This document shows, piece after piece, positions 39,786-44,287 of a stretch of DNA of 64,000 bases (its first letter is position 1; the number at the start of each line of letters is the position of its first letter). A program made the position numbers and the translations under genes. The stretch is taken from assembly GCA_016223085.1 (NCBI GenBank), contig JACRPS010000003.1, positions 496,001-560,000 of the forward strand. Direction: 5' to 3'. Below the pieces are notes generated by a model. That model was given only the letters and a program-made list of their open reading frames with translations, did not search any database and was not told the origin of the DNA. The DNA comes from Chloroflexota bacterium (GTDB lineage: Bacteria > Chloroflexota > Anaerolineae > Aggregatilineales > Phototrophicaceae).

Positions 39786-40466
39786 ATGACTGACAAGGTG
39801 GTGCTTTCGGAGCAAGATTGGCAAATTCGGCATTTCATATACCAGTTTTTTGTCGAGCATGGGCGTCCTCCAGCAATTCAGGAAACGGGCGGGCATTTTT
39901 CTCTCGACGACGAGGAGGCCAGGCAGGTTTATCATCGGCTGCATCAGCGGCATACGATCTTTCTCGAACCCGGGACCGACCGGATACGGATAGCAAATCC
40001 GCTGTCGGCTGTGCCGACCTCGTACCGCGTGGTGATAAACAACCGCACTTTATGGGCCAATTGCGCCTGGGACTCCCTGGGGATACCGGCGATGCTCAAT
40101 GCTGACGCGCAGATCGAAGCGCGACATCCATTATCGGGCGAGCCGGTGCGTTACGCCGTTACAGCAGGTGAGCTTCAGGCTGATGCTGGGGTGGTACATT
40201 TTTCACTACCGGCTCGTGCCTGGTATGATGACCTGATACATACCTGAGCGACAATCTTGCTCTTCCGGTCGGAAGCTGAAATTAGTGAGTGGTGCCGGCA
40301 GACAGGTGAGCAGCGTGGCGAATTTTTGACCTTGGCGAAGACGTGGCAACTGGCTCAGGCATGGTACAGTAACCGGCTGAAGCCCGAATTCCGGGGCAGA
40401 ACTCCACAGGAAGCCGAGCAGATTTTTGACAGGCTGGGATTGTCGTCGCCGTTCTGGCGGTTCTAA
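39786..40466 (+). CDS. Alkylmercury-lyase (MerB)-like protein with in-frame TGA at the catalytic cysteine: candidate selenoprotein
   Basis: One frame of 226 codons is interrupted only by TGA at 40245-40247 (codon 154). Before it: an HTH-like N-terminus (residues 8-60), then the MerB core with Cys93 and Asp96 in WANCAWDSLGI, matching catalytic Cys96 and Asp99 of plasmid MerB. The TGA falls where MerB has Cys159 (context YDDLIHT-TGA-ATILLFRSEAE). After it the same frame continues with family-like sequence to a normal end (LGLSSPFWRF). A five-base-pair hairpin with loop GGTC follows (40262-40275). Selenocysteine insertion fits; a nonsense mutation (TGC or TGT to TGA) or sequencing error is the alternative. 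Whether the substrate is an organomercurial is unknown. The stop TAA lies inside a dispersed repeat. Confidence 0.7.
40262..40275 (+). promoter_or_regulatory. Candidate bacterial SECIS-like hairpin
   Basis: Arm CTTCC (40262-40266), loop GGTC (40267-40270), arm GGAAG (40271-40275). The loop begins 20 bases after the TGA. The formate dehydrogenase H element of E. coli places a GGUC-containing loop about 18 bases after its UGA. Caution: the conserved residues FRSE (codons TTC CGG TCG GAA) are by themselves nearly self-complementary, so the hairpin could be a by-product. Confidence 0.45.
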
Positions 40467-43375: not shown

Positions 43376-44287
43376 ATGGTTGAACACTGCGGCTTAACGT
43401 TTACCGGCGAGCATATCCGGCAGGCACGGGCGGAACGTGACCGCGAACCGTTCCGGTCGGCCTGGGCATTCCTGCTGGAGCAGGAGCAGACCGGGGCGCT
43501 GTCGGCGGCTCAGTGGAACGCGCTACGTTACCGTTTCGACGACGATACGGCGGTAGGCGAACGAGCAGTGCGGATGCTGCTTGATCTGGGAGTGGGCTAC
43601 AATGGGGAAGTGCTCGACCAGCTTACAACCCTGCTGGCGCTGGCGCAAACGTTTGAAATGCTGCGCGACCATCCGGCATTTGACCAACCCGCCCCAACCG
43701 CCTGGCTGGAATCGCTGGCGGTGACCGTCTCGGACTTTCACCACGCGGCTGACCGTTTATCCCCGCTGGAACAACTGTGGCTGGGCACGCTGAACATCGC
43801 CGCCGGAGTGGTACTGGAACGCGAGGACTGGTTCGAGGCCGGCGCCGACATCTACCGGCAGACGATTCATGACGACGTGCGCCCGGAGGGATTTCTGCCG
43901 CAGGCGGTGGATGGCCGGGATGGCGGCAGCCTGTTCCGCCAACTACTGTCGGTCAAAGCGCTGGTGCTGTCGGCGGAGATCGCTGCCCATGCCGGCGCTG
44001 ACCTGTGGGGCTATGCTATCCGCGGCGTCTCGGTGATGACGGCCTGCGCTTACCTGTTCTTTTATTACTACTACCCGGAGAAATGGCGCTGGGACACGCT
44101 GGTGGAAGGCGAAGCACCGCGCCTGTTCCGCGAACATGGCGGCTTTCTGGAACTGGTGAACCGCCGCGCCCGCCCCAGAGACGCCAGGCTGATGCTGGAC
44201 GAACTACGCCCAATCTACGACGTGACCGGCGGCGGGCTGACCACGCTCACGCACGGCGTTCCAACACGGCGAGGACTGTTTAAATAG
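43376..44287 (+). CDS. Alginate-lyase-superfamily-like alpha-toroid protein
   Basis: A 303-residue, mostly helical protein without signal peptide. The pattern YRFDDDTAVGERAVRMLLDL, WLGTLNIAAGVVLEREDWFE and GSLFRQLLSVKALVLSAEIA with AHAGADLWGYAIRGVSVMTA resembles the alginate lyase (PL5-like) alpha/alpha toroid family. Catalytic residues cannot be placed with confidence, and the absence of an export signal argues against an extracellular lyase. The enzyme activity is therefore open. Confidence 0.55.
   Translation: MVEHCGLTFTGEHIRQARAERDREPFRSAWAFLLEQEQTGALSAAQWNALRYRFDDDTAVGERAVRMLLDLGVGYNGEVLDQLTTLLALAQTFEMLRDHPAFDQPAPTAWLESLAVTVSDFHHAADRLSPLEQLWLGTLNIAAGVVLEREDWFEAGADIYRQTIHDDVRPEGFLPQAVDGRDGGSLFRQLLSVKALVLSAEIAAHAGADLWGYAIRGVSVMTACAYLFFYYYYPEKWRWDTLVEGEAPRLFREHGGFLELVNRRARPRDARLMLDELRPIYDVTGGGLTTLTHGVPTRRGLFK

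Follow-up and report, generated by a model that had tools for sequence, protein, structure and literature searches.

The gene described here looks as if it were broken by a stop codon, yet it very probably encodes an intact, full-length protein, with its in-frame TGA being read as selenocysteine (Sec). It lies in a window of 64,000 nucleotides (the whole stretch of DNA that was analysed) from a Chloroflexota bacterium (GCA_016223085.1, contig JACRPS010000003.1, positions 496,001 to 560,000). The selenoprotein reading of the gene is strongly supported, and we hold it highly probable that the overall explanation applies, namely a MerB-superfamily selenoprotein made at full length, with hairpin-directed Sec at codon 154; that it also works like MerB is more likely than not. 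Proteins of this kind occur widely in the phylum of the window and in a second group of genomes, where some of them appear to carry a second Sec at the other metal-binding position of MerB.

A MerB-like gene with an in-frame TGA

The frame runs through 226 codons to a TAA stop codon (40464-40466) and contains a single internal TGA, at codon 154 (Table 1). With Cys standing in for Sec, the readthrough protein scores 114.4 bits against the Pfam MerB profile (PF03243; gathering score 27), and the match extends over residues 73-194, so it spans the TGA on both sides. In a phmmer search of PDB sequences MerB2 (5c17) was the best match and MerB the next, and the alignment sets Cys93 opposite MerB Cys96, Asp96 opposite Asp99 and the TGA opposite Cys159 (MerB numbering following PMC4525700). 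An earlier sequence-only reading of the window had described one frame with family-like sequence on both sides of the TGA and had assigned these three codons to the catalytic residues of MerB, and both the profile match and the phmmer alignment agree with it. Its remark that TGA is an ordinary stop elsewhere in the window is likewise borne out: TGA is the terminal stop of 8 of the 34 long non-overlapping open reading frames (ORFs), which makes a general reassignment of the codon unlikely. The Sec residue sits in the context T-U-A, with 72 residues on its C-terminal side.

Table 1. Positions in the window of the predicted selenoprotein gene and its features
Feature	Position	Strand	Basis
Predicted MerB-like selenoprotein gene, 226 residues	39786..40466	+	includes the stop codon
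N-terminal winged-helix part, about residues 8-69	39807..39992	+	fold match to LexA-like DNA-binding domains and to the N-terminal part of MerB
Cys codon 93, opposite MerB Cys96	40062..40064	+	alignment
Asp codon 96, opposite MerB Asp99	40071..40073	+	alignment
TGA codon 154, very probably read as Sec, opposite MerB Cys159	40245..40247	+	alignment
SECIS-like hairpin, GGTC loop starting 20 bases past the TGA	40260..40277	+	conservation across TGA rows

An AlphaFold2 model of the protein, again with Cys for Sec and built on an input alignment of 64 of 126 homologous rows, reached a pLDDT of 97.4 and a pTM of 0.93. The best fold match by Foldseek and VIA-align 2 was mercury-bound MerB2 (5c17; Z 18.8, 3.1 Å, 190 residues), to which the protein is 25% identical. 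MerB was next in the ranking at a Z of about 15, and LexA DNA-binding domains came after the MerB structures, matching about residues 5-70 of the model. Alignment and model together indicate a MerB fold in which Cys93, Asp96 and Sec154 are predicted to take the places of Cys96, Asp99 and Cys159. The protein shares with the organomercurial lyases MerB and MerB2 (PF03243; PDB 5c17, 3f0o, 3f2f) the domain above its gathering score, the fold, counterparts of Cys96 and Asp99, and the place of the third catalytic residue; it differs in having a predicted Sec instead of Cys159. Against the NCBI MerB equivalog model NF009710 the protein scores 61.6 bits, under the cut-off of 193.

Evidence for selenocysteine at codon 154

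Column 154 was compared across homologous rows. The fetched loci, minus the duplicates L056 and L015, gave 148 hmmsearch matches, of which 5 were dropped and 143 cover at least 90 columns. The codon is TGA in 61 of these 143 rows, Cys in 80 and neither in 2, the latter being an L124 fragment that stops short of the column and a row of poor quality, L023. No TAA or TAG was met at this column; TAA and TAG had been used to delimit the frames, and no fragment ended there. The sequence-only reading had held that a chance nonsense mutation would have to hit exactly this residue, and had proposed looking at whether close homologues carry Cys or TGA. One or the other stands in 141 of the 143 rows, and the recurrence of TGA in 61 of them places it at the catalytic Cys beyond chance.

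The TGA form is not confined to the window's genome. A contig scan of 84,980 species (351 candidate stretches) yielded 4 relatives, from Chloroflexi (L002-L004) and Rubrobacter sp. (L005), each of which has its TGA at this codon too. Among 101 genomes near that of the window, its own included, 12 gave a long match of the TGA form. A MerB-like match is present in 59 of 400 genomes of the window's phylum, at least 23 of them with TGA at the Cys159 column, and in 47 of 396 genomes from the phylum of the Rubrobacter metagenome-assembled genome (MAG), at least 20 of them with TGA; both are lower bounds, since weak or short matches (e.g., in G269, G180, G108, G379, G640, G555, and G572) were left out. 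Outside the main clade, L109/L111 and L084 also have TGA in the position of Cys159, all lacking the GGTC loop described below. L084, in which a Cys codon comes next after the TGA, has a long branch, and its place in the tree is unsure.

Selection on the protein is mostly purifying on both sides of the TGA. In the part before the TGA, none of 14 chosen pairs of relatives has a dN/dS above 0.31 where the ratio is defined (dS was saturated in one pair); for residues 172-224, behind the TGA, 13 of the 14 pairs give 0.07-0.35, and L089/L091 is the exception at 1.07. The part behind the TGA is thus selected as protein; the high dN/dS that had earlier been named as evidence against the selenoprotein reading was not seen, values being low on both sides in those 13 pairs.

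The TGA is followed by a hairpin consisting of CTTCC (40262-40266), the loop GGTC (40267-40270), and GGAAG (40271-40275). The sequence-only reading had already pointed to a hairpin with a GGTC loop behind the TGA, and it is the comparison of rows, not single-sequence folding, that makes it convincing as a candidate SECIS element. In this one sequence, a 66-base segment beginning with the TGA shows no better folding than its shuffled versions (z = 0.47), and an Rfam scan of the window at gathering scores gave no match. Across the alignment, GGTC stands at +20 to +23 behind the column-154 codon in 57 of 61 TGA rows versus 2 of 80 Cys rows, and standard base pairing between positions 15-19 and 24-28 of the stem is kept in 57-60 of the 61 TGA rows versus 33-50 of the 80 Cys rows. 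Double changes occur as well: pair 19/24 has gone from C-G to T-A in 3 rows, each of them a Sec/Sec form, and so has pair 18/25 in 1 row, and pair 16/27 has gone from T-A to C-G in 5 rows.

The hairpin stem doubles as coding sequence for Phe-Arg-Ser, and its codons are held nearly constant. In the first alignment, which has 37 TGA rows, the codon for Arg161 is CGG in 37 of 37, versus 151 of 636 Arg codons (24%) elsewhere in the same genes, and that for Ser162 is TCG in 35 of 35, versus 93 of 324 (29%) elsewhere. At codons 159-162, inside the hairpin, the synonymous difference, defined as the share of residue-sharing pairs of TGA rows with different codons (rows of at least 190 columns), is 0.05, 0.002, 0, and 0. 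Every other scored codon has a value of at least 0.15; over the 189 sites outside codons 158-163 its minimum is 0.18 and its mean 0.56. The exact hairpin core at the same spacing after a TGA has one occurrence in the 6 Mb genome.

In the SECIS hairpin of Escherichia coli fdhF, a GGUC loop comes some 18-20 bases after the UGA. The element described here resembles it in having a GGUC-loop hairpin at a similar distance but differs in the sequence of the stem and in also encoding Phe-Arg-Ser. In 4 of the 61 TGA rows (L138, L111, L109, and L084) the GGTC loop is absent; in L138 (G856:C379) a hairpin with a wholly different stem can be made out by eye at about the same distance. It is very likely, going by these comparisons, that the TGA of codon 154 is decoded as Sec by SelB with Sec-tRNA, under the direction of the GGTC-loop hairpin 13-30 bases downstream.

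The genome of the window (6.03 Mb in 37 contigs, 97.85% complete, 4.44% contaminated) holds all four of selA, selB, selC, and selD, which the sequence-only reading had suggested searching for. Profile searches gave 449 bits for SelA, 373 bits for SelB, and 368 bits for SelD, and a tRNA-Sec scoring 73 bits is also called as tRNA-Sec by ARAGORN, with the anticodon TCA. Another match to the tRNA-Sec family above the cut-off (C33, 47.2 bits) is a tRNA-Ser according to ARAGORN. SelD itself (G000:C35:83024-83959, L044) has a single in-frame TGA of its own (ACAG-TGA-ASKLGPGDL), which is an independent sign that the cell reads TGA as Sec.

The TGA form also goes together with SelA across genomes. In the first set, from the window's phylum, SelA is present in 34 of 34 TGA-form genomes versus 27 of 38 genomes with only Cys forms (Fisher p = 0.0005), with weak matches in G039 and G428 scored as absent and the MerB-positive genomes G016, G072, G180, G108, G269, and G379 left out. 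In the second group, the phylum of the Rubrobacter MAG, the contrast is weak, at 18 of 20 versus 19 of 27 (p = 0.15; partial matches in G702 and G755 scored as present); the 2 TGA-form genomes in which SelA was not found are G758 (1.8 Mb) and G744 (1.6 Mb). Pooling both groups gives 52 of 54 versus 46 of 65 (p = 0.0002), and because the genomes are related these p-values are only a guide. For the Cys rows that fall within the main clade, L113 left aside, SelA is absent in 5 of 8 genomes (G066, G121, G183, G140, and G462) and present in 3 (G011, G515, and G530).

Putative Sec/Sec forms and a proposed stepwise replacement

In 10 of the 61 TGA rows, from 8 genomes and two separate clades, the column of MerB Cys96 is TGA as well. 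The Asp99 place is taken by Glu in L087, L089, L090, and L149-L151 and by Asp in L091, L088, L092, and L093. All 8 genomes have SelA, and it is the place of this first TGA, the Sec machinery and the second TGA that lead us to read it as Sec. Folding of the stretches behind it gave possible stems in both clades; within the first of these the stems vary from row to row.

In a tree of 130 rows, made by a quick method with both Cys/Sec columns left out, the Sec/Sec state needs two changes, and the starred branches force two; the Cys/Sec state needs six, of which starred branches force at least four. On balance we favor the view that these are unnamed and widespread Sec-dependent MerB-like enzymes of Chloroflexota and the group of the Rubrobacter MAG, in which the metal-binding Cys would have been replaced stepwise, from Cys/Cys to Cys/Sec and at least twice to Sec/Sec, and which would handle organometals without MerA. 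Under this stepwise reading the Sec/Sec forms would be, to our knowledge, the first known enzymes with a selenocysteine pair as a metal site.

Activity, alternatives and relation to SaoL

In MerB, mercury is bound by Cys96 and Cys159, with Asp99 aiding the transfer of the proton (PMC4525700). The homology suggests that the protein of the window could likewise cleave alkylmercury. Cys93 and Sec154 would hold the organometal, with mercury as the obvious candidate, Asp96 would aid protonation of the carbon, the metal-carbon bond would then break, and the released metal ion would be handed to cell thiols. On general chemical grounds the selenolate of Sec154 would be expected to surpass Cys159 as a nucleophile and as a ligand of soft metals. 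By its position, Sec154 would replace the ligand that leaves the metal first in one computed MerB pathway, and MerB mimics built with selones reportedly react more quickly than their sulfur counterparts (PMC11639659). We lean towards cleavage of an organometal bond in the manner of MerB as the function of the protein.

Another role is conceivable, although we think it unlikely: the protein might be a selenoprotein of MerB fold that is no lyase in life and instead binds or senses a metal, an organoselenium compound or an organometal through Cys93 and Sec154, its winged helix perhaps touching DNA. The scarcity of MerA fits such a role. The best MerA match in the genome of the window has 346.5 bits, under the cut-off of 454.45, and a MerA above the cut-off is present in just 4 of 34 TGA-form genomes, leaving 30 without; a survey states that for organisms with MerB alone activity is not reported (PMC8261052). 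Widely shared neighbors are missing too. Around 62 TGA loci, compared by mechanical ORFs of at least 90 residues on flanks of unequal length (the window and L006 being the same place), no recurrent neighbor gene was found, and the widest-shared cluster occurs at 5 of 62, among close kin. The N-terminal 65 residues, moreover, match LexA-like DNA-binding domains with a Z of 10-11. MerB structures, however, cover residues 5-204 of the model with the winged helix included, so this part is no special sign, and the equivalents of Cys93, Asp96, and Sec154 occur together in 50 of the 61 TGA rows, which fits catalysis.

The gene is flanked on one side by a gene resembling saccharopine dehydrogenase and on the other by an ArsR-HTH/DUF2087 gene. 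Pfam scans of six neighboring ORFs gave no mer-type gene and no transporter family, and one ORF matched nothing; this, together with the lack of a MerA over the cut-off in its genome, sets the locus apart from MerB systems. Elsewhere in the window, an ORF at 43376-44287 has an alginate lyase domain (Pfam 43.3 bits).

A MerB-like protein with Sec has been listed before. A table in PMC13188914 gives SaoL (NF040728) as a MerB-like Sec protein, the organometallic lyase of the SAO system, with the motif CU, and one in PMC9312934 gives an alkylmercury lyase MerB-like Sec protein with the same example accession, WP_238493467.1. These table rows are the only Sec MerB-like proteins in the literature searched; MerB is named neither in the available part of PMC12013277 nor in the main texts of PMC2398784 and PMC5029168. 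The sequence-only reading had known of no described Sec form of the enzyme, and the entries for SaoL in these two reviews correct it on this point. The idea of a MerB-like protein with selenium at this position therefore already exists; what the present analysis adds is the long clade that lacks CU, together with the Sec/Sec forms. No description of either was found in the literature searched, though papers by Haft lay outside its reach and may contain one. The paper cited for SaoL is reportedly that of Haft and Gwadz 2023.

That the protein is simply SaoL of the SAO system is nevertheless improbable. Both are MerB-like and predicted selenoproteins, and the protein of the window does match NF040728, at 50.3 bits, as do 64 of 65 A1 members at E 0.001 or better. 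The final column of the model aligns with the TGA residue in the relative L086 (one weak profile alignment), which suggests that the Sec of SaoL is probably at the same place as Sec154. The NCBI cut-off of 140, on the other hand, is reached neither by the window's protein nor by any of 10 rows scanned separately, and a Cys directly before Sec, as in the CU motif, is found in 0 of 61 TGA rows (T precedes U in the window's protein). The stretch of 72 residues behind Sec is a further difference from SaoL, and the six neighbors give no sign of an SAO operon, none of them matching a transporter family. With its score far below the cut-off and no CU motif, the protein is better regarded as a separate variant from SaoL.

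The weakest alternative, a TGA that is a plain stop and leaves either a 153-residue protein or a Cys gene broken by mutation or assembly error, could draw on the use of TGA as a stop in the window and on the uninformative single-sequence folding, but it is extremely improbable given TGA at the same column in both the window's phylum and the second genome group with no TAA or TAG row, low dN/dS behind the TGA, and a hairpin almost without synonymous change, and its error version is already contradicted by the relatives.

Should the Sec-containing MerB-like proteins cleave organometals, the demethylation potential of these bacteria would be undercounted, and they would offer a natural series from Cys/Cys through Cys/Sec to Sec/Sec for gauging the effect of selenium on metal-carbon cleavage. 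Annotation readily truncates genes of this kind at the TGA, which a plasmid record illustrates, and surveys that require all of Cys96, Asp99, and Cys159 would then overlook them; one survey calls these residues strictly conserved (PMC8261052). A plasmid search gave 36 records with a match, 2 of which were examined. The copy on the Paraburkholderia plasmid (L113) has Cys at column 154. On the Rubrobacter radiotolerans plasmid (L112 5935-6204; NZ_CP007515.1 103195-103464) the annotated merB ends exactly at the TGA, and the homologous remainder lies behind it in another frame; this merB is a broken copy or an error in the record.
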